Source: Trametes villosa
Lineage: Eukaryota > Basidiomycota > Agaricomycetes > Polyporales > Polyporaceae
DNA length: 46,612 bases
NCBI GenBank assembly: GCA_002964805.2
Contig: PUDQ02000028.1
Coordinates: forward strand, 1 to 46,612
Direction of reading: 5' to 3'
The notes beneath the pieces are model-generated. The model did no database searches. It was not told the DNA's origin and worked only from the letters and a program-made list of their open reading frames with translations. Numbering within the stretch: the first letter of the stretch is position 1; each line of letters begins with the position of its first letter. Of the stretch, positions 3,608 through 24,537 are shown piece by piece. The translations under genes and the position numbers were made by a program.

Positions 3608-3900
3608 TTTCCGGTATCTCCCTCTCGAACAATGGTCATCATGTAGTCGATTAATTCCGCTTGTCTGCTCTTTGCTCGAGCTCCTAGATCTCAGCGCTGC
3701 GCCTCATCCGACTCAGTGCAAATTGAAAGTGCCCATGCCCCGGCGCACCTTGGCGCTTCGCAAGATCGGCGGCTAATGACCATAACGGTGCGGCTGCGGT
3801 CGCGTCGTTCGCAACTCTCTTGTTGTCACCACCCGACATATTCGCTGCAGCCTCTACGGTAGATTCCAGGGTTAGGTGATAACATCACCCCATGTCCATC
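3608..3900. other. Gene-free stretch between F-box remnant and DIRS-like element
   Basis: Probably the 3' flank of the truncated F-box gene. I see no reading frame, repeat or RNA gene here. Confidence 0.5.
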
Positions 3901-4342: not shown

Positions 4343-4403
4343 AAGTACATGGAGGTCTCGGAATGTATGTAGGATAAACTATGCAACAGGGAGGGAAGGT
4401 GGG

Positions 4404-4739
4404 TAGCTAAAAAGCCCGCGCTGGCAGCGACGAGGAGAAAAGAGTACGATAAGTACTCTGAAGGGGCCCGCGCGAGGGACGAATGGATGCTTACCTGGCA
4501 GCGATGAGGAGAAAAGAGTGAAGGTCTTTTTCCGCGGCTGGCCAGGAAAGGGCCCTCTGCGCGGCACAACGCCGGGACGGCACCCAGAAAGGCAACTGGG
4601 CGCGGCTCGCTGCCGGGTGGCGCGAGACGACGGAGGGGCCGGCGCCTGGGAAGGGCGTCCAGGCGCGGTTCGCTGCCGAGCGCGGCGCGAGACGATTGCC
4701 CCTCCGATTCGACTTGTGTAAACATTCCTTTAAACTCGA
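4404..4739 (-). repeat. A2 split repeat of the DIRS-like element (336 bp)
   Basis: Direct copy of A1 (27772-28107), beginning TAGCTAAAA and ending AAACTCGA on the plus strand. Differences: GGATGC for GGACGC, GCGATG for GCGACG, GGCACC for GGCGCC, and CGACGAGG where A1 has CGACAAGG. It is separated from B1 by 60 bp and from B2 by 61 bp. Confidence 0.9.
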
Positions 4740-4799
4740 CGAATCGTCGTAGCCTACGCGCGCGTGTATAGCTCGACCACGGGGTCCGCTGGGCTAGGC

Positions 4800-4885
4800 T
4801 GAACTCGGGCGCCTCCCGGCGTGGCCTTGTGGCACGAGCGCCCGGGGGAGGCACCCAGAAACTAGCATTATCCGGAACGAAACGC
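4800..4885 (-). repeat. B1 split repeat of the DIRS-like element (86 bp)
   Basis: Uninterrupted copy of the terminal repeat found split at 3901-4342. It lies between the tyrosine recombinase gene and A2. It serves as the pre-insertion reference for the MITE. Confidence 0.85.
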
Positions 4886-5050
4886 TACAAGCCTAAATAG
4901 AAGAGAAACGAGATGAGTCGCAAGATGGAGAAGGAAAGAGAATGCGTAGTGGAAAGGACACGGGCGCGAGAAAACGGGAGACAGGGATGCAGCCGCGGAG
5001 GCACGGGACCGGCGTGTGGCGGGACGTGCGCGGGTGCGTTTTAGGTGCGC

Positions 5051-6067
5051 CTAGACTCGGGCAAGCGCTGCGGGAGCGTCGTGAAGGGACCGGCCGTCGC
5101 TCAGCATGGCGCTGAGGAGGGCGGGGTGTTTTCGTATGTACACCAGCCAGGTGTCGGACGACCATCATCCGAGGGCCTGGATGGTCGCGGGGGGCGCACC
5201 GGCTGCGGCCAGGGAGGTAGCACCTCCGGCTCGCATCGAGTGGCCGGACACGTCGCGCGGGAAGACAGCGCGCAGGCGGCGGATGAACCATGCACGGGTC
5301 GGCACGGCACCGTTGTCGTGGATCCAGAGTTCCGCGCGCAGCGGGAACTTCGCGTCGCGTGCGCGTAGGTACTTGGCGAACACGTCGTGCGGGTCTGGCG
5401 CGGAGGCGGTGCGCTGCACGAGGACGTGGTTGCCGCTGAAGAAGGCGTCGGTCTTGTTCGCGGGCAGGAGGAACTCGAACGAGTTCGCGTCGATCTTGAC
5501 CGAGGTGCGCAAGGTCAACTTGCGGTAGGACTGGAGCTCGCGGTTGTCCGGCCAGACAAGCTCCCCCAGGCGGAGCAGCGCGTGGAAGCCGGTGAGTAGT
5601 ATGGCGAGGAAGAGGTGGTCGTCGAGGGAAGGAGTGGGGGGCATGGCGGAGACGGCGAGCAGGAGGTCAGCCCGCGTGAGCGCGCGTTTGCGTGCTACGG
5701 GCTTACTCCGGAGCCGTTTGAACCCTTTCATTGTGCGTGTGACGATGGGGGACGCGCGCGCGGCGCGGACGCTGGGGTAGAGCACTTCGAGCTCGCTGCA
5801 GATCCCCGAGAGGTAGGAGTCGACGGAGCGGGGCTCAATGTGATGACACATGAACGTCGCGTAGAGACTGAGTGTGTCGGTGGTGGGCTTGATGGGGAAA
5901 GCGTGGAGGTGAATGAAGTTCAAATAACTGTTGAGAGCTGACGAGTATGTCAGCTTTGTGCTGCTGTCGAGGGCGTACCCGAGTGCGATCGCCCTCTCGT
6001 GGAGCAGACGCTCCTTCGTCCACGGCTGTCTTGACGGCTGCCGGGACTTGCGCGCAGAGGTGATCAT
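5051..6067 (-). pseudogene. Tyrosine recombinase of the DIRS-like element, premature stop before the nucleophile
   Basis: The enzyme would recombine the circular cDNA into the genome. The ATG at 6067 overlaps the RNase H stop in an ATGA. An N-terminal SAM-like half (TKLTYSSALNSYLNF) is followed by the catalytic half: the first Arg in FHALLRLGEL, then His and Arg in SGHSMRAGG. After IQALG an in-frame TGA (5165-5167) stands where the family has Arg (GRW), so CGA has become TGA. Beyond it the frame continues WSSDTWLVYIRKHP, which contains the expected tyrosine nucleophile, to a natural TAG at 5051-5053. As it stands the protein lacks its catalytic Tyr. The rest of the gene looks intact, so the lesion is recent unless the stop is read through. 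Confidence 0.85.
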
Positions 6068-6435
6068 GACGGGCACGCCCCCAGCGCGTCTCGAGGGGGT
6101 AGTAGGGGGAAGAGGGCGATCCCGGGCACGAGGGTGCGGACCAGGTCAAGCTTGCCGCGCGACAGGGCGTCGGCGACGACGTTGAGCTCTCCGGCGATGA
6201 GCTCGACGCGCACATCGAGCTCACACTCGAGCATGACGTCCACAGCGCTTTTGAGGATAGGGTTGTACGCCGGGGACGCTCGGAGCGAATTGAAGATGGC
6301 GACGGAGTTGCTGTTGTCTGAGAGCACAGCGAGGCGCCTCACGAAACGGCCCGCCGAGTGCCACGCGCGAACACGGTGGATAGCGGCGCAGATGGCGAGC
6401 GCCTCGAAGAAGAAAATGGTGTCGACGGGCGCACC
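6064..6435 (-). CDS. RNase H 3' part of the DIRS-like RT-RNase H gene (separated by the copia insertion)
   Basis: Continues in frame from 25036 once the copia element and its AGACG duplication are removed (DLPS | GAPVDTIFFFEALAICAAI). The residues FEALAICAAI, LSDNSNSVAIF and LNVVADALSRG are the C-terminal RNase H signatures of DIRS-type polymerases. It ends in TGA that overlaps the ATG of the recombinase (TCATGA), an arrangement suited to termination-reinitiation. It cannot be expressed jointly with its 5' part now. Confidence 0.8.
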   Translation of the reverse strand, partial: GAPVDTIFFFEALAICAAIHRVRAWHSAGRFVRRLAVLSDNSNSVAIFNSLRASPAYNPILKSAVDVMLECELDVRVELIAGELNVVADALSRGKLDLVRTLVPGIALFPLLPPRDALGACPS

Positions 6436-6440
6436 AGACG

Positions 6441-6860
6441 TGTTGAATGTGGTGATTCTTCGCGTTCTTTGCGTCCGTTTGACTTCAGACTTTGCACAGC
6501 GCTCGCGCGCGGTGCCTCCTTCCTATTCTAGAATTCTTAGGCGCCGGCGCCCAGAAATGCGCCGGCACCAGCTGGAATTGAACTCTCAACCTTCTGGGTT
6601 TTCCTACTGAACGCTTCACAGCGCTTATTTCGTTTCCTCCATAGCTCGCTTACTTAATGCTTTTGTTGTCGGATATTTGGCCCACGCCTCGTCCTCCCTG
6701 CGGTCCTCGTCGTCTGCTTTCCTCAGCAGCTCAACTTGGACCACAGGTGAGATACAGGTCGTTCTTCATGTAATGTATTCAGCAGCTCAACTTGGACCAC
6801 AGTTTGTTGTCTGTCAACTTGAGCCCCAGCCTTCGCTCTCAGCAGCATCAGGCTTTAACA
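6441..6860 (+). repeat. 5' LTR of the copia element
   Basis: 420 bp, TGTTG...TAACA. It holds two copies of a 24-bp motif containing AGCTCAACTTGGACCACAG (6723-6746 and 6779-6802) and a strong palindrome GGCGCCGGCGCC near 6538. Confidence 0.97.
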
Positions 6861-6880
6861 GGTTATGAGCCCTGCGCTCT
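6861..6880 (+). other. Primer-binding site complementary to the tRNA-Met anticodon arm
   Basis: GGTTATGAGCCCTGCGCTCT directly follows the LTR. Its complement carries the loop CTCATAA with a CAT anticodon, so it pairs with the anticodon stem-loop of a tRNA-Met rather than with a 3' CCA end. Priming by an internal initiator tRNA-Met fragment is established for Drosophila copia. Confidence 0.8.
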
Positions 6881-7071
6881 GACTGCCCCTGCTCGACTCC
6901 CTGCTCCCTGCTTGCCATCCAGCCCCATCTGCGCTCTGATCTTCCTTCAAGAGTCACCCCCTCCTCTCTCTGTGCTTTCCAGCCCCTATCTGAGCGAAAA
7001 TTTTCCCTGGATCTCTCCTGATCCCAAATCTCGTCGTCGTCGCTCGCGCTTCCGCCCACCGCTCCCGCACC

Positions 7072-8985
7072 ATGTCGTCGTCCTCCACTCCAAGTTTCAA
7101 GCCCCTCTCGTCGTCCAACTACCCCCAATGGAGCGGAGAGATGAGGGCCTGGCTGATGAAGCATGGCCTCTGGTCTCTGGTCAAGGGGACCGAGTCCATG
7201 CCCTCCGAGGACGAGGAGAAGCAGAAGGAGTGGCTGAGGCGCGAGGAGAAGGCTGCCGGTGAGATCTTCCTTGCTGTGGAGCCTGAGCAGCGAATCCACT
7301 TTGCTGGCTCTGAGGACAATCCTGTCGAGATCTGGAAGAAGCTGGAGGCTGCCCACGTCGTCCGTCGCCCTGGGGCACGCTTCAACGCCTACAACACCCT
7401 CTTCTCCATCCGGAAAAGCGAGGATGAGTCCCTCTCCTCGCTTTCTGCTCGCGTTGAGGAGTCCATGCGCTCCATCCAGAATCTCCGCCCCCAGAACTTC
7501 ACCCTGAAGGACCTCGACGACGAGCTGCAGTCCATGGCGCTCATCCGAGCCCTCCCAGACCAGTACACCTCCCTCATCGACGCCCTCCTGCTCCAGGACA
7601 AGCTCAGCAAGGCCACCATCGTCTCTGCCTTCCAGAACCACGAGATCAACCGCTCCCACACCTCTGAGACGTCCCTGGCGTCGTCTACCGCCCTCTCTGC
7701 CTCTGCGACGCACTCCCCTCGCTCCAAGTGCGAGTTCTGCCACCGGGACAACCACACCATGTCCCAGTGCTTCAAGTTCCAGCGCGCGCAGAAGCAGGCC
7801 CAGGAACCGCGCAAGCCGCGCGCTGAGAGCGCGAACAAGGCCCAGGACGCGTCCCCCACCACCTCCTCCATCCAGGAGTTCGCTGGCAGCGCAAGTCTCC
7901 GTCTCCCTGACCCTGGGGACGCTCTATCTCCTCTCCAGCTCGATGCTGACGTCGATTGGAATGCAGACACAGGGGCCACGTCTCATATGACTCCCCATCG
8001 TCACTGGCTTCGCAACTACGAGCCTCTGCGCGTTCCGATCCATCTGGCGGACAACCAGGTCGTCTACTCGTCCGGGGTGGGCTCGGTCGTCTTCAGACCG
8101 CTGGTTGGGGGGAGAGAGGGCCGAGACGTCGAGTTCACGAGGGTTCTGCATGTCCCTGCGCTTAGAAACAACCTCCTGTCCGTCCTGTTCTTGACCAAAC
8201 ACCGTCGTTTCACCGTCTCCATCTCCTCTGCGCGTATGGACTTCGCCCTCGACGGCAGGACACTCTTCTGTGCCCCCATCAACGAGCGCAACACCGCCCT
8301 CCTTGCCGGCACCACCATCGCTCCAGATCCCCCTGCAGCAGAGCTAGCTCAGCTCGCTTCGACACTCCCCATGGATCTTGCGCTCTGGCACCGTCGCTTT
8401 GCCCACTGCGCCCCAGACAGCGTCAGGACACTGCTCGACAAGGGCCTGGTCAGTGGGCTTGTGCTCAACTCGACGGCGCGCCCAGATCCCATCTGCGAGC
8501 CTTGTCTTGCTGGCAAGATGCACGCCAACCCCTTCCCCTCCTCGTCGCATCGTGCGCCCTCCCGGGGTGTCCTCGTCCACTCGGACTTGAAGGGCGCTCT
8601 GTGGAAGCAGACCCACCAGGGTTTCCGCTACTGGGTCATCTTTGTGGACGACCACTCGCGTTTCCGGGCTCTCTTCCTGCTCAAGAGGAAGTCCGACGTG
8701 TTTGGCGCGTTCAAGGCCTACTGCACGTGGGTGGAGACGCAGACTGGCTCGCCGGTCAAGGCCCTGCGCGACGACAAGGGCGGGGAGTACATGTCCCAGG
8801 AGTTCATCGACTTCTGTGTGGACCACGGCATTGAGCGTCAGCACTCTGTCCGGAACCGTCCCCAGCAGAACGGCGTCGCTGAGCGCACCAACCGGATGCT
8901 GTCGGACGGGGTTACAGCCATGCTGGCAGAGTCAGGACTCCCTCAGACGTTCTGGGGAGAGGCCATCCTCTCGCTGGTCCATGTG
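7072..8985 (+). CDS. copia Gag-protease-integrase (5' part of Gag-Pol, interrupted)
   Basis: The ATG at 7072 lies in ACCATGT after a pyrimidine-rich leader. Order of domains: UBN2-like Gag (about residues 10-200, SNYPQWSGEMRAWLMKH), zinc knuckle C-X2-C-X4-H-X4-C near residue 220, aspartic protease with DTGAT near 300, the GAG-pre-integrase HHCC zinc site near 435-485 (LWHRRFAH...CEPC), and the integrase core with Asp in VHSDLKG, Asp in LRDDKGGEY and Glu in QNGVAERTNRML. The frame is cut after codon GTG (8983-8985) by the chromovirus and resumes at 19366. All catalytic residues are present, so only the nested insertions disable it. Confidence 0.95.
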
Positions 8986-9278
8986 TGTAAAAACTCACGG
9001 TGGGGTGCCTTTGCGGCCCCTATTCCCTCGGGTGTACTGGACCGGGCTCGTATTAGCTCGGCGTACTCCTGGGGGGATGGTGGGGGTGTGCAAAGGACTT
9101 GCCCCCACCAGGCGCCCGGGGTCCGAATACCCGGGGCCGTACGCGTAGATTAGATACATGAGGTAGGCGCGCGCGATAACGCGCGCGCAAGTATTTCTAC
9201 GCAGGACGGATGCACGAATAAGTGCATCCGTTAAGGATATACGATACGAGGAGTGCGCTATATTGCGCACTCCTTACA
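8986..9278 (-). repeat. 3' LTR of the chromovirus
   Basis: 293 bp; on the plus strand TGTAAAAACTCACGG...CTCCTTACA. It is full of hairpins: arms GCGCGCGC, CGGATGCAC/GTGCATCCG and AGGAGTGCGC/GCGCACTCCT, each with a six-base loop, plus TGGTGGGGG/CCCCCACCA. Confidence 0.97.
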
Positions 9279-9291
9279 CTCTCCCCCTCCA
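9279..9291 (-). other. Polypurine tract of the chromovirus
   Basis: GGAGGGGGAGAG on the minus strand directly abuts the 3' LTR, the expected start point of plus-strand DNA synthesis. The stretch 9292-9625 between here and the third ORF holds no gene, only small inverted repeats such as GTCAC/GTGAC and GGCCAC/GTGGCC. Confidence 0.8.
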
Positions 9292-9625
9292 GACCCGTGT
9301 ACGGGGCGAAATAAGAATTATTATAGTAAGGTGGGGGGCCACAACTAATAGTGGCCAGTACGCCCTAATTACAAGACATCACCGGGGCGTTAGGTGAGCT
9401 CGAGGGGCTGCAATAATAGCAGCGGCGTCTGGATGTACACGACGATACTCGACGAGGTATCGCGCGGCAGTGAGCAGGGGAAGAAAGATTACGAAGGAAG
9501 TCACAGTAATAGTGACCCCCTCTGGCTGCGAATAGTAGCAGCGAGTATGCCGTATGGTGGTAGTCCCGAACAGCTGGCATGGCTGTGGGGTGGTCTCGGA
9601 GGATCGCTAACGTACATGGAGACGA

Positions 9626-12142
9626 TTAAGTCTCCATGTCCTCGTTCGCGTCGTTAGGCGGGGGAGCATCTGCCCCAGCGTCCTCTCGAGGTTCTTGACG
9701 AGCCTCCTCACCGTCGTTTGATACGGCGGGAGGCTCGGGGTCTTCAGCGGAAGCAGCCGTGGAAGACTGCACCGCTGGCTCAACGTCCATCTCGTCGTTG
9801 GGCGGAGGATCGTTGGGGGTGGATGCGTTGGTGGAGGGAGGCGCGGGAGGTATAACTCCCAACGCCTCGAGAGTGGGTACAGTGGGGACGTCCGCGATAC
9901 TGCGGACGCCCGTGAATACGAGGTCGCGGTCGTCAGGCATCATGCCCTGTTGCCCGGCGCGCGACCGGTACGCCGCGACTTGGTGCTCGTCGGCCCATTC
10001 GAAGGTGACGCCGATTTGAGCGTACCATCGCGCGACGTGGAAGAGCGAGAGTGCGTCCTCGGCGAAACTGCCGGGGTATGTGGTAGAGCCTCCGTCGGTA
10101 TTGACGGGGTATCCGCCGCGTTGGACGATGTCGCGGTACAGCCCGCGCACTGAAAACAGTGTGTTGGCCATGACGATCCAACGTCCCCGAGATTCGGGCT
10201 CGGTGCCGCGCCGAAGCGGCAACCGAGCCATCCGATGGAACTCGACGTGGGTGAGTTGAGGACGGCCGGAGCCATCAACAATCATCCACGGAGGGGTTCG
10301 GTCGCGGTACAACGCGAACCAGTCCCTGAGCTCGGTCGCGGGTGCGTCGTACCGGGGCTGGGGACGACGTCCTTGACGGGCGCGAGTTCGAGGTTGGGGA
10401 CGCAGTCGGCTTGAGGGGATCGGTAGGTGGCCCGTGTGCATAGGCACGAGACCAGGCGGAGTGTAGGCCGTGGAATGGCCGATGGTGGCGAGATGGGGAG
10501 GCTTGTCGGGATTCCGCCAAGAATCGGCGAGAACCCGTAGCCCGCGCACGCTAGTGTACGACGGGTTGTCGTTGACCTGCGCCAGCAGGTGTTGTATCCG
10601 GTGGCGCGCCTCGCCCATGTCGATAGCGGCAGCGTCCATAATCGACCGCGCGTGGGCTTCAGTCACTGGTACAAAGTCGTACCAGTGGTTCGCACGCTGC
10701 GGGTCGGTATTGGCCGGCAGCGCGAGGAGGTGGTGGGGCCAGCCGGGCACTTGACGATCGGGCTGCTGCCAACCGCTGGGTAGGAGGACCGTCGGCTGGG
10801 TCTGGGTGACCGACGCGGGGATGGGGAGGCCTCGACGATTGTACCGACTGATGGTACGATCCTTGAGTCGTTTGAATCGACTCTCGTCGAAGTCCTCCTC
10901 GTCGCCCGAGCTGTTCTCCCAGTCGACCATGGGATGTTCTCGCTCAGGCGCCGGAAGCGACACCCGAGGCGCGTTTGGCGACGACGACGGGCCAGCAATG
11001 GGCTGCGTCGTCGCGGATGCCGACGCGGACGCGGAGCCTGTTACGGACTCACGCGGTGGCGGGTTTGTGGGGCGAGGAGGTGACCGAGCACGAGGCGGCG
11101 TCCTCGCCCTTCGTGGCGGGGAGGTTGCACGACGCGACGGCCCTTGTTGCGGCGAATACGGGCGGCGAGAGGGGCCCGACGTCGATACTGACGCCTGGCC
11201 TCGGTCTTCTTGTCGACGAGGGCTGGCTTCGCGTGCATCCCGAGGCCTATCATAGGTCCTCGGGCGGCTTCGCAGCTGCCGGTTGGCCTGCTCCAGCTGC
11301 TCCTTCAACCGCGAGTTTTCGTCGCGGGCCTGCTCAAGCTGCTGGGTAGCGGTATTCCGCTCCCGTCGATACCGCTCCATGCGGTCGTTGTTCTCGGTGC
11401 CCTGTCGTCGAGCTTCCGCCAACTGCGACGAAAGCTCCTGCATCCTCCGCGTGTGCTCTTCGCGCTCTATCGCGCGCTCGGCCGCGGTTCCTCCCCCTTC
11501 GGAGCGTTGATGCTCCTGGAAGTACTGCCAGAACCGAGACTGCAGTTGAGCTTGAACGCTCGACTGCGCGTCCCGGAACGACGACTCGTTCTGTGCAGCA
11601 ACGTAGTGCCGCACGAACTCCTCACACAACGGGCATTGGGCCGTGTGAGCGACCAGCAACGACTGATTGGGCACCGGGCCCCAGCTCATGTGGTTGAGGG
11701 GCATGAGCGGGGGCATGCCGGGCATCGTCGTGGCGGGCGTCGGGATACTTGACGAACCGTACGCCGATTGAGGCGCACGGTTGAGGGCCGCAGGGTTCCC
11801 ATAAGGTATGCCCAATGGCTGCTCCGGCGACCAGCCGTACGTTGATGCGTACCCGAACGGGTTCGAGGGCATCATAGCCTGGCGTGGCTGTTGCTGTTGA
11901 AACAGCTGCTGCACTTGGGGCGGCAGCTGTGCGGCATACATGCCCTGCATCGAATAAGATGCAGGGCCCGGAGCAGGCACGCCCATTTGGACGGCCTGCA
12001 CGTCGTGAGGGGGGTTCTGGGGCATTGCGGGTGGCGGTTGTGCCGGTTGTGGCGGTTGAGCGTCCACGACCATTTCGGTCGTGGACGCGGGGACTTGGGA
12101 CGTGGGCGGCGCGGAGCCTTGAGGTTGCTGGTTTGGGTCCAT
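9626..12142 (-). CDS. Third ORF of the chromovirus, function unknown (838 aa)
   Basis: The first ATG (12142, in CCCCATGGAC) gives MDPNQQPQG. Visible parts: a Pro/Gln-rich N-terminus to about residue 165; a C-P-L-C pair near 170 in CPLCEEFVRHYV; a heptad-like coiled coil at about 220-292 (MQELSSQLAEAR...LKEQLEQANRQL); an Arg/Ser/Pro-rich stretch at about 293-385; and a folded-looking C-terminal region at about 480-760 with many aromatic and hydrophobic residues (ELRDWFALYRDRTPPWMI, SLFHVARWYAQIGVTFEWAD). There are no transmembrane spans or envelope signs. The upstream hydrophobic stretch in the same frame precedes any ATG. The 300-bp gap to pol suggests its own or a spliced message. Gag-like composition and the coiled coil hint at a particle or nucleic-acid role, but I do not recognise the family. 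Confidence 0.8.
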   Translation of the reverse strand: MDPNQQPQGSAPPTSQVPASTTEMVVDAQPPQPAQPPPAMPQNPPHDVQAVQMGVPAPGPASYSMQGMYAAQLPPQVQQLFQQQQPRQAMMPSNPFGYASTYGWSPEQPLGIPYGNPAALNRAPQSAYGSSSIPTPATTMPGMPPLMPLNHMSWGPVPNQSLLVAHTAQCPLCEEFVRHYVAAQNESSFRDAQSSVQAQLQSRFWQYFQEHQRSEGGGTAAERAIEREEHTRRMQELSSQLAEARRQGTENNDRMERYRRERNTATQQLEQARDENSRLKEQLEQANRQLRSRPRTYDRPRDAREASPRRQEDRGQASVSTSGPSRRPYSPQQGPSRRATSPPRRARTPPRARSPPRPTNPPPRESVTGSASASASATTQPIAGPSSSPNAPRVSLPAPEREHPMVDWENSSGDEEDFDESRFKRLKDRTISRYNRRGLPIPASVTQTQPTVLLPSGWQQPDRQVPGWPHHLLALPANTDPQRANHWYDFVPVTEAHARSIMDAAAIDMGEARHRIQHLLAQVNDNPSYTSVRGLRVLADSWRNPDKPPHLATIGHSTAYTPPGLVPMHTGHLPIPSSRLRPQPRTRARQGRRPQPRYDAPATELRDWFALYRDRTPPWMIVDGSGRPQLTHVEFHRMARLPLRRGTEPESRGRWIVMANTLFSVRGLYRDIVQRGGYPVNTDGGSTTYPGSFAEDALSLFHVARWYAQIGVTFEWADEHQVAAYRSRAGQQGMMPDDRDLVFTGVRSIADVPTVPTLEALGVIPPAPPSTNASTPNDPPPNDEMDVEPAVQSSTAASAEDPEPPAVSNDGEEARQEPREDAGADAPPPNDANEDMET

Positions 12143-12443
12143 GGGGTCGTTGGCGAGGTTGAGCGGGTGAGCGAGAGGGTGGTGGGCGAGTGTGAGTGCG
12201 AGAGCGAAGAGGAGGGCTACGACGCGCGAGCTGGCAAGTCTCGCCAAGTCCGCTAGGGTCGGCGGGCGCTTCCGAATCGGAGCTCCAATTGACTTTCAAT
12301 CGCGTGTCGCGTCGCGTCCTCTGGTCTCGTGACCGTTCTGGCCGATCTCGATTATTGGGATCGGCCCGGACGGTGGCTGTGCTCGCGCTTACCCCGTCCG
12401 AATAGTTCGGACTGGTACTTGAGCTCGACCATTACGGTCGGGT

Positions 12444-15400
12444 TCAAGGCTCTCGGGTTACGGCTATTGTTGCCGTAGCCTTGTCTTTCCTCGGCAACGC
12501 TCGCCAGTCTCGGGCCCCCATAAGCTGGCAGTACTCATCGAGTGCTGCCAGGTCCTTACAGTGATCGTAAGGTTCCCAAGTATGGTCGCCAAGAGTCCAC
12601 CGAACATGGAATTGGCACTTATTGCCCTTCCACTCGTGTCCGACTATTTCGTCCACGAGCCACTCGGTATCGTCGGGTTGTCCAAAATCGTAGAAGGCCT
12701 GTGCTTCCCGATGTGGGAATACAGCATCGTCATTGGGCTCATGCCGCCGTAACAGCGAGACATGAAACCTCGGATGTATACGCCTGTCTCGCAATTCCGC
12801 GGGCAGGTCCAAGACATAGTTGGACGTGTGCGGAAGGCACTCGACTATTCGGTACGGTCCGACGTATTTAGGTACGAGCTTTCTCGCTCGTCCCTTAGGA
12901 ATAGCCAGGTTCTTCGTGGACAAATATACCATATCGCCCACTTCGAATTCGGGCTCTTCTTGCCTATGCTTATTGGCATAGTGCGTCTGGGATACACGCG
13001 CGTCGATAATGGTGTCGTGTGCTGCTTCAAGGTTTGCCTTGGCTCGTTGCGCAAATTCGCGCACACCATGGAAAGGTGATTCGGTTTTAATACCGTTCAT
13101 CGAGCGGGGCAAATACCCGTAGTTGAGCTCGAACGGAGCAAAGCCTGTGGTCGAGCTCGTAGCTGAGTTCATTGCGAACTCAGCTAACGGTAGCTTCTCG
13201 TACCAATCGAGCTGATTGGGCGAGACTATGGCGCGTAGGATCTGGGATACCGACCTTATGGTGCGTTCGCTCAGGCCATCCGTTTGCGGGTGGAATGAGG
13301 TGGACATTAATAGTTTGGCACCCATTAGTCGGTGGAGTTCACGCCAAAATTTTGACGTGAACTTGCTGTCCCGATCCGATACAATAGATTCCGGGATCCC
13401 ATGCAGTCGTACTACCTCACGGAGGTAGACCAATGATAGGTCTGCCGCGGTATCGGTAGTACGGACTGGTATGAGATGAACCATGGACGTGAGCCGACAT
13501 ACGACTACCCATATGTAGTCGTATCCGTGAGACCGCGGAAAAGGTCCCACGAAATCCATGGACAATGAAGTCCATGGAATGGTCGCGATCGGGAGATTGT
13601 GTAGAAGGCCGGTGGGTAGCTTCGTAGAGGTCTTGGCGGCGTGGCATATGCCGCACGTCAAGCAGAATTTATCGACGTCTTTACGAAGAGTGGGCCACCA
13701 GAACCATCGACGCAAATACTCCGAGGTACGCTGAGGCCCTAAGTGGCCTAGCGTAGTGTGCGCTCGATCCATAGCCAATTCGACTATGGATCGTTTATGG
13801 AATAACGCACGAGGAAGACATAATACTTCCTCGTCCGCTCGGTTCTTGGTATACACGAGCCCGTCTTTCACGGCGAACGTGTGGTAGTGGGAGGGGTTGG
13901 ACAGTACTTTGCTAAAGGTACTGTCCCGAAGGTACCCTTCACGGATAGCCTTCAAATACCCCTCTTCACGGGCAAGATCCGGACGTAAGGACGGTCCTGC
14001 GGTTAGCGATTCAGCCACCGTAGGATTATCCTCTTCCGTGGAGGATCGGGTCGGTAGTGGTTCGGGCGGTTGAGCTGCCGAATAACTGGCAGCCTCAACT
14101 ACTCGGTCTTCTACTGTTTCAGTAGGGATCCGATCGCGCTTTTCCTTGAGCCGTTCGGACTGACGAGTGACGCGAGCCGCCCGAAGCTCCAATAGCCTCG
14201 TTTGGGGCAGGTCATCACCCTCGGGATCCAGCCGAACATCTGCGTTCACGATGTCATAGTCTGGGACTATATCATCGGCGTGGTCGTTTTCGTGGTAGCG
14301 CGACAAACAGTCGGCCACCTTGTTAAGTCGTCCGGGGATGTAGGTAATATCGTAGTCAAATCTGGCTAGATATTCGTACCATCTAATCTGACGGCGATTG
14401 GGGTTCGCAACGCCCTTCATGAACTCAAGAGCCTTATGGTCCGTGACGATTCGAATGTCACGGCCCAGAAGTTTGTCCTCCCATTTGAGGAGTCCCTCCA
14501 TTATGGCTAGAGCTTCTTGCTCGTAGGTATGGTAAGCCCGTTGCGCGCTGGTGAATTTCTTTGAGAGAAATCCAGCCGGGCGACAGGTCTCCCATTTCTC
14601 GCCTTGTCCATAGAGCGTCCCAATGCCGAATAGTGATGCATCGCAGATGAGCCAAATAGGCTCAGGCCTGCGTGGGTCGATAGGTCTCAATATTGGGACC
14701 TTACATGCTAGAGCCTTTATCGACTCGAAGCATTTATCGTGTAACGATCGCCATACAAACGGCCTGTCGTTGTGAACCATATCGGATAAGGGCGAAGTAT
14801 ACGCCGATATATCCGGTAAGAAGTGCGCTAAGTAATTAACGAGGCCCAGAAATCTCTGGACTTCGTTATACGACCGTGGCGTTCTCCAATTCCGTATTCG
14901 ACTCATTTTGTCGGTATCGGCATGAAGGCCTCGGTCATCTATTCGGTGACCGAGACAGTCGAGGTCCTTGGAGAACAAGTCGCATTTGGACTTGCTCAAG
15001 AACAATTTCGCCTTGCGGAGCGCGTCGAATACGAGCCGCAAATGCTCTTCATGTTCTTCTTTCGTATCGGAGAACACGAATATGTCGTCCAAGTATACAT
15101 GGACAAATCGTCCGATGTATTCGCGGAATATAGTCGTCATCAACCTTTGAAAGGTTGATGGGGCATTCGTATCGCCCTGCTGCATAACTTCGCTCACGAA
15201 CGTTCCAAACGGCGTGGCGAAAGCAGTCTTCCATATGTCCTCTGCTACGATGCGTACTTGTTCGTACGCATCGGATAGGTCTATCTTCGAGCGATACTTC
15301 GCTCGAGCGACATCCATTCGTATTTGATCTTGGTCCGGAAAGGGCGTAAGATCATGAACTGTATTATCGTTACGCTGTCTCGCGTCGATAACCGTTCGCA

Positions 15401-15995
15401 ACTTGCCATTCTTCTTGGCTACGCACAATAATGGTGCGGCCTGGGAGACTGTTTCCGGTCTCCACCAACCCGCTTTTACATAGCGGTTGATCTTCGATAG
15501 AAGCTCGCCCTTTATCGCCTCCGCACATCGCGGAAGGTGATATCGGTAAATCTTCTTCTCGTCGATCAGTGGTATTTTGTGGTTTACCTCTCGATATGGA
15601 GGCAAACTGTCAGGCGCAGGACGCATAATGTCCTCCGTCTCCTTGTACCACTTGTCTCGAAGAGCGTTAAGCTCCTCTTCTTCTTCGTCGATCACAAATC
15701 CGACATGAGTGCGTCGGATTTGCTCATCATCCCATTGCTCTTTCGCAATGTGATCTAGGAGTTCGTTGATCCCTAATGGGTCTTCGAACCCGAATCTATC
15801 ACGTCTTACTTCTTTTGATGAGTGTAGACTGGGCAAAAATCGCTCAGCTATGTTGGGGGGAACACTATTTCGTGCTCTCCCTTGGTGTCTAACCGGTGGA
15901 TTCACGGCTTCAATGCCGTTCCCTCCCCCTTCCGGAGACACTGTGGTCTTAGCATAGCGAGTGTGGGAGGGTTCCACTTTCGTGGACTCAGCCAT
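12444..15995 (-). CDS. Chromovirus Pol: reverse transcriptase, RNase H, integrase, chromodomain (1183 aa)
   Basis: Copies the element RNA and integrates the cDNA. RT at about residues 165-340 with YLDD at 301-304 (VYLDDIFVFSD). RNase H follows (WLICDASLFGIGTL, TDHKALEFM). The integrase zinc site HTTLGHLG...CLTCGIC is near residue 745, then the core with Asp in SMDFVGPF, Asp in VSDRDSKF and Glu in HPQTDGLSERTIRS. The C-terminal GPYRIVE region and a chromodomain (WLVDEIVGHEW...FHVRWTLGDHTWEPYDHC) place it among chromoviruses, which target methylated histone tails. It is in the same frame as gag, separated only by TAG-CAG-AGC before the ATG. No disabling change is seen. Confidence 0.97.
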   Translation of the reverse strand: MAESTKVEPSHTRYAKTTVSPEGGGNGIEAVNPPVRHQGRARNSVPPNIAERFLPSLHSSKEVRRDRFGFEDPLGINELLDHIAKEQWDDEQIRRTHVGFVIDEEEEELNALRDKWYKETEDIMRPAPDSLPPYREVNHKIPLIDEKKIYRYHLPRCAEAIKGELLSKINRYVKAGWWRPETVSQAAPLLCVAKKNGKLRTVIDARQRNDNTVHDLTPFPDQDQIRMDVARAKYRSKIDLSDAYEQVRIVAEDIWKTAFATPFGTFVSEVMQQGDTNAPSTFQRLMTTIFREYIGRFVHVYLDDIFVFSDTKEEHEEHLRLVFDALRKAKLFLSKSKCDLFSKDLDCLGHRIDDRGLHADTDKMSRIRNWRTPRSYNEVQRFLGLVNYLAHFLPDISAYTSPLSDMVHNDRPFVWRSLHDKCFESIKALACKVPILRPIDPRRPEPIWLICDASLFGIGTLYGQGEKWETCRPAGFLSKKFTSAQRAYHTYEQEALAIMEGLLKWEDKLLGRDIRIVTDHKALEFMKGVANPNRRQIRWYEYLARFDYDITYIPGRLNKVADCLSRYHENDHADDIVPDYDIVNADVRLDPEGDDLPQTRLLELRAARVTRQSERLKEKRDRIPTETVEDRVVEAASYSAAQPPEPLPTRSSTEEDNPTVAESLTAGPSLRPDLAREEGYLKAIREGYLRDSTFSKVLSNPSHYHTFAVKDGLVYTKNRADEEVLCLPRALFHKRSIVELAMDRAHTTLGHLGPQRTSEYLRRWFWWPTLRKDVDKFCLTCGICHAAKTSTKLPTGLLHNLPIATIPWTSLSMDFVGPFPRSHGYDYIWVVVCRLTSMVHLIPVRTTDTAADLSLVYLREVVRLHGIPESIVSDRDSKFTSKFWRELHRLMGAKLLMSTSFHPQTDGLSERTIRSVSQILRAIVSPNQLDWYEKLPLAEFAMNSATSSTTGFAPFELNYGYLPRSMNGIKTESPFHGVREFAQRAKANLEAAHDTIIDARVSQTHYANKHRQEEPEFEVGDMVYLSTKNLAIPKGRARKLVPKYVGPYRIVECLPHTSNYVLDLPAELRDRRIHPRFHVSLLRRHEPNDDAVFPHREAQAFYDFGQPDDTEWLVDEIVGHEWKGNKCQFHVRWTLGDHTWEPYDHCKDLAALDEYCQLMGARDWRALPRKDKATATIAVTREP

Positions 15996-16001
15996 GCTCT
16001 G

Positions 16002-18962
16002 CTAATGTGCAGGGCGTGGCTTGGCCTCTTGAGGCACGTCGCGGAAGAGCGGAATGCTCTTCCCGCCTACCCATACTCGATCCTTCCCAAAGTCGAGCAC
16101 TATATTGTGCTGTCGACAGAATACAGTGCCGAGTATGGCATCGTATTTATCGATGTCCACTACATCAAAGTAGTGCTGTTGTCGCACTGGACCTATCGCA
16201 ATTTCGGCTTGTGCGCCGAAATTGATCTTCGTGCGACTGCCTTTGGTGCCTAGTTGTAGGCCCATTGGTTCTGTAAGGTCGATCCGTCCGGCCTTACAGA
16301 TGTACGCGAACTCCGGGGTAATGGAGTCCGTCGTACATCCTGAGTCGAAGAGCACTAAGGCTCGGATGCCGTTTATGGGCAATTCGGCGCATAACGTGCG
16401 CTGTTCTTCCTTCGCTCTTCGAGGTTGGGCGGCCGGGTCTTCTATACGACGCACTTTCGCGTCGTACATCCACCCGTGCCGAGCATCGCGGTCTTTTCCG
16501 ACCGCCATGCTGTGGATCCTCACAGCCTGTGCAGTCTCAGAGTCTATAATCGACTCGAGTCTCATACCTGCGAAATGTACGGCATTATCGCCGTCATTCC
16601 ATCCCTCTTGGCCATCATCCGGCTCGGACTCGTACTGAGATCCTCCCCATCCATATTCGGATGTTGGATAATCACCAGCCTCGTCCTCTCCTGGGTCATA
16701 GTTTTGATGGTCGGCCCTATCATCGGGTTCGACCTGGTCCTGCTCGGGTGTATCTTCAGCCGGCTCGGGTGGTTGTTCGCCATCCGAGTTGTCGTCCACA
16801 ACACGTTGGGCAAACATTCGTGGCGGGTTCGAGTCCCGCTTGCCCGCGTTGGGACAGACCGGATCGGACGCATAATGTCCGATTTGCCCGCACGAGAAGC
16901 ATTTGACTGCGGCCTTCGTGGCCGGATGCCCCGAGGTAGGCTTGGCCGCTGTACTGGCGGAAGGCCTAGGACGGTCGGGAGGTGTACTCGCAGTACGATT
17001 ACGGTCCTGCGAATAGACTCGCGATGGTCCACTCCTCGGTTTGGAGGAGCTCGGATTAGACGATTGCGGTCTGGAGGAACTAGGGGTAGCTTTATGCTTG
17101 CCCTTAGCTTCATGGGTGGTGCGATGGCTTGAAGACGAGGCATGAGCCGTAGAAGACTCACGCTGCCGCCGGCGCATTTGCATTGCGCGGGTGTTCTCCT
17201 CTATATCGAGGGCAGATTGGTACAACTCAGTTAATGTGTTGTACTTCACCGATAGTCCATTAACGACTGTGATGATTTGTTCATAGTGCTCTGGAAGAGC
17301 ATCTATGAATCGCGTTCTCATTTGGAACCGTGAGGGGCGTTCCCACATACGATCGGAGGTGTACAGTAGCCGTTCGTAAAGAGCGGCTACTCCACCCTTG
17401 CTTGCATCGAATCGCAAACGGTCGAATTGTTGAGCCGCGTACAAATAGTTATCTCGGTGTATAAACCGTCGGAACAGCCCTATAACGGCTTCCTCGAATA
17501 ACCAATCACGCCTTTCACGTGTAGAAGATTGTACAGTATTGTAAAACCAGAGTGCGGCATCCCCTGAGAGGCTCGCACTGAGTAGACGAAGACGATCACC
17601 GTCCATAGAAGGACCGGTGATCCGCAACATATGGAAATATTCCAATAAGTTACGCAACCACAGTTCAAAGTGGTCGAGGTCGTCCTTGCCGTCATAAGCC
17701 TTTGGGGCTTGTAGTTTGGACATCTTCAGATAGGCCGGAGGAGGCGAAGTTGCCTCCTCACTAACCATCTCTTCGATCATGTCCAGTAGCCTCTGTACCC
17801 CGAAGTTGTCTCGGGGCAGACTACTAGGCCCGGTATACGCCAGTTCTTCCGTAACCGCTCTATTGCGGTCACGGCGATCATCAGCCGGCTCCCGGTATAA
17901 TCCCGGTGCCGCGGAGGGTGCCATAGAACAGCGTGGTCGAAGGCCAGGTACGGCGGGAGGAGGTAATGATCGCGGTCCTCGGGATGGACCCGCATCCGCA
18001 TGAGACGCTGATCCATACCCAGCCCAGCCGATGGATGGCGAGGGTTGAGCCTCTTCGGGGTCAAACACGACATTTCGTCGTACTTGACCGTAACCGGGTT
18101 GAGCGGCACGCGGTGTAGAAGTTTGAGGCGGGGGCCGCGAAGCACGCGCAGCGATGTCCGACTCGCTAAGGCCCGCCCTTTTCAGGCGTCTTCGACGTTC
18201 TTCCTCGAGTCGTAGTTCTTGAGGAGGTGGGACTAATTCGTCCTCCACCTCATATTCTTCATCGTCCATTCTCGGGTCATCCTCGTCTGATCCTTGGACT
18301 ATATCGTCCAATGGATCTTCTTCGGATTCTTGCATTATGGCTAGCCTGTCTATCTGGCGGGCTAGCTCGTCCTCGGCATCTTGAACTTGATTCCGCAATG
18401 CTTTAAAGCGTTGCGCCGAGGCTTGCAAGACGTTCATCAACTCGATCGACGTTGACGGTCGAATCGAGTCACGACGACTTTTCCCTCGTATACGCTGCCA
18501 GCGCGAGCTGACTTTCGCTAGACCCTTAGAGTCTAACGAAAGTTGCGAACTACGGCTCGCGGACCGTCGGGGCTGGTCTTCGCCCACGGCGTGTTCTCCG
18601 CCGTGTCGTTCGTCTTCATGAGGTTCGCCCTCGTGCAGTGGGGCGGGTTCGTCGCGTGCTCGGGACCGTGATGGTCCCGCGGATGGCGGCCGTTGGTGCT
18701 CAGCCGTTCGTGGGCTGCGCGGGTGGCCGCTGGCAGAAGGCGCGTCCGTTCCGCGCGGTTGACGAGAAGGCTCGCGCGGCTCTGATGCCACGCGAGGTGA
18801 TTGGGCCCGAGTGGACCTGGACGAGAGAGGACGCGTCGCACTTGGCGCGCCCTGAGGATTCGAGGAGGCTCCTCGAGCCGATCCGGCTCGAGGAGGTTGT
18901 TGCTGAGGTGTTGGTTGGCGTTCTGGACGCTGTTGTCCGTCACCGTTGTTACCACGGTCCAT
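16002..18962 (-). CDS. Chromovirus Gag with C-terminal aspartic protease (986 aa)
   Basis: The ATG at 18962 opens a long Arg/Ser/Pro-rich N-terminus. A capsid-like helical region lies around residues 420-610 (FELWLRNLLEYFHML, LFRRFIHRD), a zinc knuckle C-X2-C-X4-H-X5-C near 686-699 (CFSCGQIGHYASDPVC), an acidic Asp/Glu-rich segment follows, and a retropepsin active site DSGCT is near 869 (LVLFDSGCTTDSITPEF). The protease therefore sits in the Gag frame. The frame ends CAT-TAG and continues in the same frame into pol after CAG-AGC-ATG. The 105 bp between the ATG and the 5' LTR hold no obvious primer site. Confidence 0.93.
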   Translation of the reverse strand: MDRGNNGDGQQRPERQPTPQQQPPRAGSARGASSNPQGAPSATRPLSSRSTRAQSPRVASEPREPSRQPRGTDAPSASGHPRSPRTAEHQRPPSAGPSRSRARDEPAPLHEGEPHEDERHGGEHAVGEDQPRRSASRSSQLSLDSKGLAKVSSRWQRIRGKSRRDSIRPSTSIELMNVLQASAQRFKALRNQVQDAEDELARQIDRLAIMQESEEDPLDDIVQGSDEDDPRMDDEEYEVEDELVPPPQELRLEEERRRRLKRAGLSESDIAARASRPPPQTSTPRAAQPGYGQVRRNVVFDPEEAQPSPSIGWAGYGSASHADAGPSRGPRSLPPPAVPGLRPRCSMAPSAAPGLYREPADDRRDRNRAVTEELAYTGPSSLPRDNFGVQRLLDMIEEMVSEEATSPPPAYLKMSKLQAPKAYDGKDDLDHFELWLRNLLEYFHMLRITGPSMDGDRLRLLSASLSGDAALWFYNTVQSSTRERRDWLFEEAVIGLFRRFIHRDNYLYAAQQFDRLRFDASKGGVAALYERLLYTSDRMWERPSRFQMRTRFIDALPEHYEQIITVVNGLSVKYNTLTELYQSALDIEENTRAMQMRRRQRESSTAHASSSSHRTTHEAKGKHKATPSSSRPQSSNPSSSKPRSGPSRVYSQDRNRTASTPPDRPRPSASTAAKPTSGHPATKAAVKCFSCGQIGHYASDPVCPNAGKRDSNPPRMFAQRVVDDNSDGEQPPEPAEDTPEQDQVEPDDRADHQNYDPGEDEAGDYPTSEYGWGGSQYESEPDDGQEGWNDGDNAVHFAGMRLESIIDSETAQAVRIHSMAVGKDRDARHGWMYDAKVRRIEDPAAQPRRAKEEQRTLCAELPINGIRALVLFDSGCTTDSITPEFAYICKAGRIDLTEPMGLQLGTKGSRTKINFGAQAEIAIGPVRQQHYFDVVDIDKYDAILGTVFCRQHNIVLDFGKDRVWVGGKSIPLFRDVPQEAKPRPAH

Positions 18963-19067
18963 TTCGGGCAGGTGGCAACTTTAAAGTCTATTAAGGTTAG
19001 TGATGTGGCGTTGACGTGGTAACGTCGAGCTCGAATACGAGCAGTATAAGCACGGAGTACAAAAAAG

Positions 19068-19360
19068 TGTAAAAACTCACGGTGGGGTGCCTTTGCGGCC
19101 CCTATTCCCTCGGGTGTACTGGACCGGGCTCGTATTAGCTCGGCGTACTCCTGGGGGGATGGTGGGGGTGTGCAAAGGACTTGCCCCCACCAGGCGCCCG
19201 GGGTCCGAATACCCGGGGCCGTACGCGTAGATTAGATACATGAGGTAGGCGCGCGCGATAACGCGCGCGCAAGTATTTCTACGCAGGACGGATGCACGAA
19301 TAAGTGCATCCGTTAAGGATATACGATACGAGGAGTGCGCTATATTGCGCACTCCTTACA
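19068..19360 (-). repeat. 5' LTR of the chromovirus
   Basis: 293 bp, no difference from 8986-9278 found by eye. Confidence 0.97.
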
Positions 19361-19365
19361 ATGTG

Positions 19366-22050: not shown

Positions 22051-24537
22051 TACGTCCACGTCCAGCGTGACAAGCGACAAGGCCTGTCTCCTCACATGGA
22101 GAAATGCGTCTTCATTGGGTACCCGGAGGGCTACAAGGGCTGGAAGTTCTACAACCCCACGACGAAGCGCACTGTCATCAGTGAACGCGCTGAGTTTGAT
22201 GAGCGGTTCTTCCCTGGCCTCAAGCGGTCGAGCACGGAGTCAGATCGCGTCGCTGCGCCTCCAGCTCCCGCCCACGCCCCTGGGCCCATGGCCCCTCCCT
22301 ACGCTGGCGAGCGCGATGCTCCTGTGCCGCATTTGGGGGGAGAGGACGAGGCTTTGCCTCCTGTGCAAAATGCGCCTCAGGACCATCCACTGCCGGAGGA
22401 CCCCCTGGAGCACGCCGACGACGACTCCGATGCGGACGCGCCCTCGCCCCCAGCTCAGGCACCTGCCGATCTACCCCCTCACGCAGTTGCGCCGCCGTCG
22501 CCGCCCGTTCAGGCCTCGAACAGGGCCCCTCGTCCTCGAAGCCCTGATTCACCTCCATCTCCTCCTCCTGCGAAGCGCAGACGAACTCCCCCCTCCCAGG
22601 CCGGACCCAGTGCTCCCCAGTGTCGCACCACCCGGGTGAGCCGTCCGCCTGGTGAGTGGTGGAAGGCCCCAAAGCCGCGCTCCGCTGCGCCCTCTCCTGC
22701 GCCCTCTGCAGCTCCATCTCCATCTCCTCCTCCTGTCGACCATTCTGTGCGCCACCAGCATCCTCCCCTCGACTCCATCCCAGAGACCCCCTCGCCGCTC
22801 CAGTCGCCCCCAGACTCTCCCGTCGCGTCAGGGTCCATCTGGCACGCCCACGAGCCCACACCTGCGATTGCGGACTCTGAGGACGAGGATGAGGACGTCG
22901 AGGAAGCTGTCAACTTTGTCTTTGCTCGTTCTGAGCTTGATGATGATGAGGAGTGCGCACTCTTCGTTTCCGAGGCTGAGCCCTTGACGTACGAGGAGGC
23001 CATGCGCCGTCCTGACGCGGACGAGTGGCGCAAGGCAATGGACGAGGAGCTGGCAGCGCATCGCTCCAACGGCACATGGGAAGTCACTGCACTTCCCCCG
23101 GGCAAGCGGGCAATTGGCTGCAAGTGGGTCTTCCGCTTGAAGCGCAAGGCAGACGGCTCCATCGAGCGCTACAAGGCCCGCCTCGTCGCCAAGGGCTTCT
23201 CCCAGCGCCCAGGCTTTGAGTACACGGAGATCTTCGCCCCCACCATCCGCATGTCCTCCATCCGCCTCATCCTCGCTCAGACAGCGCTCCAGGACCTCCA
23301 CATGCGCTCCATCGACATCTCCCATGCCTTCATCAATGGCGACCTCGACGAGGAGCTGTACATGAAGCCGCCCCCTGCGTTCACCCAGAGCCAGTGGGGC
23401 GAGGTCCTGCACCTGCTCAAGTCGCTCTACGGCTTGAAGCAGAGCGCTCGGATGTGGAACAAGAAGCTGCACACTGCGCTTCAGGAGCTGGGCTTCCGCC
23501 GGGTGCGCTCTGACGCTGCCATGTACGTCTTTGAGCGAGACGGCGTCCGGATCTTCATGCCCATCTACGTCGACGACATCACCATTGTCTCCAACTCCGA
23601 GTCCTCCATCGACTCTGTCGTCTTCCAGCTGTCCCAGCACTTCAAGCTGCGCGACCTGGGCTCCACATCCTACCTCCTGGGCATCGAGATCATCCGGGAC
23701 CGTCCCAACCGCTCTGTGGCACTCTCACAGCGCCAGTACGTCCTTGACGTCCTTGAGCGGTTTGGCATGGCGGACTGCAACCCTGTGTCTACTCCCATGG
23801 AGCCTGGCCTCTCCCTCTCGTCCTCGATGGCTCCCTCGACGCCTGAGGACGTTGCCTTCATGCGCAACGTCCCCTACATCTCCATCGTCGGTGCTCTCAT
23901 GTACCTGGCGACCTGCACTCGCCCAGACATTGCCTACTCCGTCTCCACCCTCGCCAGGTTCAACTCGAACCCTGGGGTCGCGCACTGGAAGGCTGCGAAG
24001 CATCTGCTTTGTTACCTGAAGGGCACAGCCGACCTGCGCCTCACCTACCGTCCAGACCCGTCCCTTGACGCTCCGTTCGTCGCATTCTGCGATGCAGCTC
24101 ATGGGGACAACCCAGACAATGGGAGATCGACGGGAGGTTACCTGGTGCGCGTTGGCAGCGGTGCGATCAGCTGGAGCAGCAAACTGCAGCCCATTGTGAC
24201 GCTTTCTTCCACGGAAGCTGAATTTGTGGCCGCAGTTGAGGCAGGCAAGGAGATCTTCTGGGTGCGCAACATGCTCTCTGAGTTTGGGGCCCCAGTCGAC
24301 GGCGCATCCTCCCTTCGCATTGACAACCAGTCTGCGATCTCTGTGGCGAAGAACCCAGAGCACCACGGGAGGATGAAGCACCTTGACCTGCGCTTCTACT
24401 GGCTGCGCGACGCAGTTGAGGCCGGCAAGATTGCTCCTGATTTTGTGCCCACTGATCAGATGCCTGCGGACATGCTCACCAAAGTGCTGCCTCACGCTAA
24501 GGTCGAGCTGTTCAGGCGGATGATGGGCTTGGAGTGA
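22051..24537 (+). CDS. copia Pol 3' part: integrase tail, reverse transcriptase, RNase H
   Basis: Resumes the copia frame at TAC (YVHVQRDKRQGLSPHMEKCVF). An integrase C-terminal region (FIGYPEGYKGWKFYNP) is followed by a long Pro/Ser-rich linker. RT_2 starts near EWRKAMDEELAAH, has WVFRLKRKADGSIERYKARL and the catalytic YVDD at 23566-23577. RNase H has Asp in FCDAAHGD, Glu in SSTEAEF and Asp in RIDNQSA. The frame stops with TGA at 24535-24537, about 70 bp before the polypurine tract. No frameshift or stop was found. Confidence 0.95.
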   Translation, partial: YVHVQRDKRQGLSPHMEKCVFIGYPEGYKGWKFYNPTTKRTVISERAEFDERFFPGLKRSSTESDRVAAPPAPAHAPGPMAPPYAGERDAPVPHLGGEDEALPPVQNAPQDHPLPEDPLEHADDDSDADAPSPPAQAPADLPPHAVAPPSPPVQASNRAPRPRSPDSPPSPPPAKRRRTPPSQAGPSAPQCRTTRVSRPPGEWWKAPKPRSAAPSPAPSAAPSPSPPPVDHSVRHQHPPLDSIPETPSPLQSPPDSPVASGSIWHAHEPTPAIADSEDEDEDVEEAVNFVFARSELDDDEECALFVSEAEPLTYEEAMRRPDADEWRKAMDEELAAHRSNGTWEVTALPPGKRAIGCKWVFRLKRKADGSIERYKARLVAKGFSQRPGFEYTEIFAPTIRMSSIRLILAQTALQDLHMRSIDISHAFINGDLDEELYMKPPPAFTQSQWGEVLHLLKSLYGLKQSARMWNKKLHTALQELGFRRVRSDAAMYVFERDGVRIFMPIYVDDITIVSNSESSIDSVVFQLSQHFKLRDLGSTSYLLGIEIIRDRPNRSVALSQRQYVLDVLERFGMADCNPVSTPMEPGLSLSSSMAPSTPEDVAFMRNVPYISIVGALMYLATCTRPDIAYSVSTLARFNSNPGVAHWKAAKHLLCYLKGTADLRLTYRPDPSLDAPFVAFCDAAHGDNPDNGRSTGGYLVRVGSGAISWSSKLQPIVTLSSTEAEFVAAVEAGKEIFWVRNMLSEFGAPVDGASSLRIDNQSAISVAKNPEHHGRMKHLDLRFYWLRDAVEAGKIAPDFVPTDQMPADMLTKVLPHAKVELFRRMMGLE

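Follow-up and report, generated by a model that had tools for sequence, protein, structure and literature searches.

RNA viruses are already known to have pervasive, selected RNA structure, the purpose of which is still a matter of inference. Coronaviruses have a genome-scale ordered RNA structure, and the accessible part of the report on it (PMC7642675) gives a genome-mean folding excess of 15% for SARS-CoV-2 and of 23-24% for the coronavirus with the largest value, in which a local peak exceeds 50%; the pairings are poorly conserved between relatives and paired sites are less diverse. Ty1 and Ty3 RNA in yeast is described, in the available sections of PMC11381356, as having stable, highly structured regions (up to 30%), and the umbravirus-like CY1 RNA carries hairpins with set thermodynamic properties, inserted hairpins persisting only if they conform (PMC11998532, in its accessible part). 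Here we describe a Ty3-type retrotransposon with long terminal repeats (LTRs) that is rich in short perfect hairpins. It occupies positions 8986-19360, on the minus strand, of a 46,612-nt stretch of DNA from the fungus Trametes villosa (contig PUDQ02000028.1), and "the window" below means this whole stretch. The window copy is among the 7 tabulated loci of a family that we call A; a sister family, B, whose pol is 77% identical to that of A in amino acids, has 23 tabulated loci lying 0.3-3.4% from its reference copy in the same host genome (46.7 Mb in 140 contigs).

Like the coronavirus genomes as portrayed in that part of the report (PMC7642675), the element has a coding sequence with raised folding energy throughout, exceeding that of shuffles by 16-27% in family A and by 19-34% in family B depending on the open reading frame (ORF). 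It also has many consecutive stem-loops, perfect non-overlapping stems with arms of at least 6 bp numbering 66 in B pol (3.5 kb) and 30 in A pol. The pairings are likewise little conserved between families, since 3 of the 12 A pol hairpin centres are common to B (5 overlap) and none of the 12 to C17 pol, and paired sites are less diverse in B pol and, more weakly, in A. As expected of genome-scale ordered RNA structure, the sum of the structure would then count rather than any one hairpin. Unlike the coronaviruses described there (PMC7642675), the element is an integrated LTR retrotransposon, its perfect stems in pol lie within about 30 nt and its structure is nearly as strong on the antisense strand; its pol mean excess is 27-34% against the 15% and 23-24% quoted above, and its gag values (26% and 33%) are larger as well, a comparison of ORF means with genome means. 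Yeast Ty3 belongs to the same retroelement superfamily and has structured regions dispersed over its genomic RNA, but the available sections of that study (PMC11381356) report neither an excess of perfect short hairpins over shuffles nor constraint at synonymous sites. CY1 shares with the element a hairpin-bearing RNA genome and differs from it, in the accessible part of its description (PMC11998532), in being a plant RNA virus whose secondary structure has been solved. An earlier note made from the letters of this DNA alone (the original prediction) knew of no element family with this property, and among the titles listed in the literature searched, which had subscription journals outside it, we also found no report of an LTR retrotransposon with such a hairpin excess.

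Hairpin density and folding energy

We defined a hairpin as a perfect inverted repeat with arms of at least 8 bp and a loop of 3-12 nt, and used the flanks and ORFs of the window itself as the baseline. The element contains 29 such hairpins (2.80/kb), compared with 4 in positions 1-8985 (0.45/kb) and 15 in positions 19361-46612 (0.55/kb). Codon-preserving shuffles (100 per element ORF, 30 per control ORF) showed a clear excess both in ORF2, which encodes pol (12 hairpins against a shuffle mean of 0.58, maximum 3), and in ORF1, which encodes gag and protease (6 against 0.44, maximum 2). The count in ORF3 alone is not significant (3 against 0.55, maximum 4). Over positions 9279-19360 there are 26 hairpins against 1.05 in 20 dinucleotide shuffles (maximum 3), about 25 times more, and one LTR has 3 against 0.00; the 347 nt behind ORF3 of the window copy have none, as do their shuffles. 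Each of the 11 control ORFs of the window has 0 or 1 hairpin, and none exceeds the maximum of its 30 shuffles. The background is nevertheless not entirely clean, because the downstream flank has 15 hairpins against 5.9 in dinucleotide shuffles (maximum 9) and the upstream flank 4 against 2.25 (maximum 6). Both flank excesses are mild and far under that of the element, and some of the flank repeats are present twice with the same arms.

Three causes were set aside. Chance and base composition are ruled out by the counts against shuffles. General repeat content is ruled out because three pol types have 11-30 inverted repeats but 0-2 each of the mirror, direct and parallel-complement kinds (in A pol 12 inverted against 0, 2 and 0, respectively). 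Protein constraint is ruled out by the codon shuffles and by the amino-acid identity between A and B, which is equal in the arms (0.75-0.76) and outside them (0.77). The hairpin richness of the element is therefore a real and strong feature, which in pol and gag far exceeds that of codon-preserving shuffles, and the original prediction was right that neighbouring genes lack it and that the encoded proteins do not explain it.

The pol excess is found mainly at loops of 3-12 nt and rises with arm length. A smaller excess is present at longer loops (4 against 0.55 at 16-20 nt in A, 6 against 1.60 at 21-30 nt in B). Loops of 0-2 nt show little excess, and we draw no evidence from them because palindromes, too, can fold by forming a small loop. 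No clear regularity beyond that of random spacing is seen among the hairpins in pol. We also scanned the energy gain over codon shuffles (6 shuffles) at pair-span limits of 20, 30, 45, 70, 150 and 500 nt. The gain in A and B pol is greatest at a span of 30 and does not grow up to 500, and that in C17 and C19 pol still rises, to spans of 70-150. The fraction of paired bases rises little over shuffles (from 0.47 to 0.52 in A and from 0.49 to 0.58 in B), so that the stems are improved rather than much more numerous. Third codon positions pair with second, first and third positions in 21, 20 and 12 of 53 hairpins, respectively (38, 39 and 38 in shuffles).

Folding of the sense strand in 150-nt windows gave z scores against codon shuffles of -14.3 for A pol, -13.6 for A gag and -24.6 for B pol. 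ORF3 of A reached -8.1, and its structure is thus significant by folding energy and not by hairpin count. The corresponding controls gave -1.1 and -1.6 for the copia ORFs, -0.2 for the F-box ORF and +1.7 for ORF 41339. Expressed as folding excess over 10 dinucleotide shuffles in non-overlapping 350-nt fragments, the values are 27% for pol, 26% for gag and 16% for ORF3 in family A, and 34% for pol, 33% for the gag part and 19% for ORF3 in family B. All nine control segments lie between -4 and 7% (the F-box ORF and four other ORFs -4 to 5%, ORF 25030-27723 1%, copia ORF 22096-24537 7%).

Families, copies and probable selection on the stems

We counted hairpins in relatives from this genome only, searches of viral contigs and genome contigs having returned no relatives in other organisms. 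The property is family-specific and graded. Each of the 5 copies of B counted has 29-31 hairpins in pol against shuffle means of 0.65-0.88. Among the distant pol types (57-60% amino-acid identity), L017 and L018 have 11, L019 and L020 have 2, and L015 and L016 have none. The two other Ty3 families sampled, L041 and L042, have 1 hairpin each (0.47 and 0.18 in shuffles) and a folding excess of 2.6% and 6.5%. The pol of L019, a C type, folds with a z of -15.9 against codon shuffles despite its 2 perfect hairpins, using longer-range pairs. Behind ORF3 of one B copy (L009, 7877-8577) lies a presumed 3' non-coding region plus LTR; its first 624 bp contain 9 perfect hairpins, and two fragments of it gave a folding excess of 54%. 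When the hairpins of A are compared with the B copy B_L007, the 5' arms show 20 differences and the 3' arms 38 (12 hairpins; 8 against 2), and the hairpins of B show no such bias (79 against 78; one of the 30 hairpins was omitted because of a gap, leaving 29). A codon identical to that of B is found more often in A arms (41/69) than at other A sites (337/830), and the same codon is less frequent in B arms (63/166) than elsewhere (315/733).

Variation among copies was analyzed at pol sites capable of synonymous change. Variants present in two or more copies were called shared and have probably passed through replication; arms were taken from any copy, which biases against finding depletion. In the 23 copies of B, with arms of at least 6 bp, shared variants occupy 19/426 arm sites, 28/163 loop sites and 81/666 sites outside (p=8.6e-6); with arms of at least 8 bp they occupy 11/220 sites in arms against 106/970 (p=0.0057). 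A pol gave 10/188 in arms against 113/1007 at arms of at least 6 bp (p=0.013). Circular shifts kept in codon register, which preserve clustering, were as low as the observed value in 0/1170 (arms of at least 6 bp) and 1/1170 (at least 8 bp) cases for B and in 11/1176 for A (at least 6 bp). In B pol the loops are not depleted of shared variants, and private variants show no arm depletion (448/1170 shifts as low).

Co-variation of the arms between copies, which the original prediction had put forward as a comparison to make, was not observed: no change from one Watson-Crick pair to another occurs among 604 B or 272 A pairs. Six variable hairpins were inspected; in five of them a single substitution separates the nearest other form, and in the sixth two do. 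Overlapping 10- and 12-mers changed by at least 3 differences were compared in A and B pol together (827 and 1331 comparisons), and 0 alleles have their reverse complement in the same copy within 80 nt; at 8 nt 3 alleles among 432 have it, all of them self-complementary.

Because the arms in pol vary less among copies than other sites, the hairpins are likely to be selected RNA stem-loops. We put at about 0.7 the probability that selection keeps them as local stem-loops of the element RNA, a reading which the completion of the energy gain at spans of up to 30 nt and the folding excess also support. Of the three causes named in the original prediction, selection for structured RNA is thus the one supported, and template-switch repair and specific protein-binding sites are disfavoured, the latter because the loops are free to vary and hairpin positions turn over between families.

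Several observations weigh against selected RNA stem-loops. In A pol the depletion is marginal at arms of at least 8 bp (4/92 against 126/1151, p=0.05; 67/1176 shifts), and private variants are lowered as well (32/1176 shifts at arms of at least 6 bp, 7/1176 at 8 bp), a lowering that would not be expected if selection acted during replication alone. The depletion is significant in pol only, gag and ORF3 having few shared variants: B gag has 2/186 in arms against 6/267 (p=0.48), B ORF3 2/203 against 20/606 (p=0.086), the gag part of A 1/83 against 6/409 (p=1), and A ORF3 1/65 against 2/353 (p=0.4), the last in the opposite direction. In addition, the four relatives in the same host with 0, 0, 2 and 2 pol hairpins have a folding excess of about 8% in three cases and 17% in one, and the lineage at large therefore does not need strong structure. 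The strand evidence is weak. Folding excess is larger on the sense than on the antisense strand in 12 of 13 element segments, but the controls lean to sense too, in 6 of 9 segments. The sense gain is larger in 5 of the 6 ORF segments of A and B (strand z -5.4 for B ORF3, -2.5 for B gag, -1.0 to -1.8 in A), and the difference is absent in B pol (0.5) and in the C types (-0.2 to 0.6), with seven control ORFs between -1.9 and 0.5. Perfect pairs are strand-blind. Interruptions of the G-U type on the sense strand number 42 against 11.7 expected and those of the A-C type, which are G-U on the antisense strand, 50 against 17.4 (five ORFs summed). The two enrichments are similar, whereas G-U should predominate under a constraint acting purely on RNA. 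The shared variants of B include more G-U than A-C (13 against 7), and those of A do not (2 against 3). On balance we infer that the selected molecule is more probably RNA than cDNA.

Other explanations were weighed against the same data. The hairpins could be dispersed packaging signals, many stem-loops being bound by Gag, through its CCHC knuckle, so that the genomic RNA is condensed into the particle. Their presence throughout three ORFs and the LTR, the zinc knuckle of Gag and the conservation of pol stems rather than loops would suit such a role. We nevertheless consider it rather unlikely, in view of the freely varying loops, of the lack of a common loop by eye (a formal motif search was not made), of the unremarkable spacing in pol and of the related elements of the host that manage with few or no hairpins. 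Structure might instead prolong the life of the mRNA or tune its translation, unlinked to silencing or packaging, as its being carried by coding regions would allow. This we regard as unlikely, because translation alone would not need structure behind ORF3, and the stretch at that place in the B copy is even more structured than the ORFs. We find it distinctly improbable that single-stranded cDNA or DNA cruciforms are the form in which the hairpins act, for example against recombination or as sites for DNA-binding proteins; the closeness of sense and antisense folding gains and the A-C enrichment agree with action in DNA, and the lean of the element segments to sense, strongest in B ORF3, does not.

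Correction of quasi-palindromes by template switching yields perfect inverted repeats with short loops, and it is expected to leave templated clusters and compensated arms. That the reverse transcriptase of the element perfects imperfect palindromes in this way, with no benefit to the element, has only a slight chance of being right: the lack of a clear G-U preference, the hairpins in the LTR and behind ORF3 of the B copy and the smaller divergence of A 5' arms are in its favour, but neither templated clusters nor compensated arms are found, variable hairpins mostly differ by single substitutions, the depletion of shared variants in arms is not accompanied by any re-making of pairs, arms are not more protein-divergent than the rest and the two arms of B hairpins differ equally, so that selected stem-loops are favoured over template-switch repair.

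Layout of the element and its surroundings

The limits of the element given in the original prediction proved exact. Its 3' LTR (8986-9278) and 5' LTR (19068-19360), both on the minus strand, are 293 bp long, begin and end with TG...CA and are identical to each other, so that the element is probably young; they are bordered by target-site duplications CACAT at 8981-8985 and 19361-19365. The 5-bp duplication, the LTRs and the order reverse transcriptase (RT)-RNase H-integrase are those of Ty3/gypsy elements. Each LTR carries three perfect hairpins, at 9167-9188 (arm 9 bp, loop 4 nt; arm and loop are given in this order below), 9206-9231 (10, 6) and 9249-9274 (10, 6) in the 3' LTR and at 19249-19270 (9, 4), 19288-19313 (10, 6) and 19331-19356 (10, 6) in the 5' LTR.

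ORF1 (16002-18962, minus strand, 986 aa) encodes gag with a CCHC zinc knuckle and an aspartyl protease, as judged from its translation and domain matches, and contains hairpins at 16043-16063 (8, 5), 16199-16224 (10, 6), 16445-16466 (8, 6), 17365-17391 (8, 11), 17738-17759 (8, 6) and 18869-18895 (12, 3). ORF2 (12444-15995, minus strand, 1183 aa) encodes RT, RNase H, integrase and a possible C-terminal chromodomain, again by translation and domain matches. Its hairpins lie at 13160-13186 (11, 5), 13336-13363 (8, 12), 13499-13524 (10, 6), 13555-13578 (9, 6), 13765-13793 (10, 9), 13809-13834 (9, 8), 13899-13926 (9, 10), 14930-14954 (8, 9), 15138-15160 (10, 3), 15248-15273 (10, 6), 15287-15306 (8, 4; the same in sister family B) and 15695-15722 (10, 8). 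Members of the chromovirus branch of Ty3/gypsy, to which the original prediction assigned the element, carry a chromodomain at the C terminus of integrase. The C terminus of ORF2 has weak matches to MPP8 (E 0.02-0.03) and to cpSRP43, which bears a chromodomain (E 2.6e-4; no single stretch passing), and the Pfam chromodomain model gave no report. Among the matches listed (best 120 of 475), the nearest named pol relative is from Trametes pubescens (85% amino-acid identity), and further ones are from T. sanguinea (74%) and T. versicolor (59%).

ORF3 (9626-12247, minus strand, 873 aa) is an extra ORF with weak, coiled-coil-like matches that stands behind pol. It matched no Pfam family above cut-off and has 4 relatives in a database of 5.8 billion proteins (7995 candidates scored), two of them named, from Lenzites betulinus. 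A hairpin spans its end at 9614-9639 (10, 6), others lie at 10664-10687 (9, 6), 11942-11967 (10, 6) and 12060-12088 (12, 5), and one falls in the ORF2-ORF3 spacer at 12340-12366 (8, 11). All ten hairpins exemplified in the original prediction are perfect, the arms of two (12060-12088, 12 bp; 15695-15722, 10 bp) having been understated by one pair.

ORFs with copia domains flank the element on either side (7072-9153 and 22096-24537), and ORF 25030-27723 has no Pfam match. Identical arm sequences are paired at 6543/24718, 4642/28010, 19641/21849 and 20305/21180; these duplicate arm pairs around the copia ORFs suggest further nested or duplicated repeats. Elsewhere in the genome, an A-like copy (L038) is split in two with about 5 kb between the pieces, its pol being 93-95% identical to that of the window copy, and upstream of a B copy lies a stretch of 927 bp that is also present inverted, with 91% identity (L021 3488-4414 and L009 125-1051).

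Possible purpose and wider meaning

Our leading guess for the purpose of the stem-loops is shielding from small-RNA silencing. The genomic RNA of the element, which is also its mRNA, would be folded on itself; so folded, it would be hard for host small RNAs to pair with and make a bad template for host RNA-dependent RNA polymerases (RdRP), and stems of 8-12 bp would stay below the length for Dicer. Argonaute (Piwi), RdRP and RNase III domains occur in the host genome, so that such a shield is possible, though it remains conjecture. Only tentatively, then, do we propose that a lineage of fungal LTR retrotransposons has used synonymous codons to turn all of its RNA into a chain of hairpins, each about 30 nt long, an armour against small-RNA silencing that comes and goes between families; we would not give this full account even odds.

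Here a multi-copy transposon is represented in a single fungal genome by coexisting families whose structure is strong, weak or bare. Together with the Argonaute, RdRP and RNase III domains of the host, these families offer a natural comparison for the purpose of the structure. The finding also warns against using the synonymous sites of some transposons as neutral clocks, whether for dating or for dN/dS. If the silencing armour is true, it would represent an evasion in the style of RNA viruses by a genome-resident transposon, taken in pol beyond the RNA-virus genome means compared here from the accessible part of PMC7642675.

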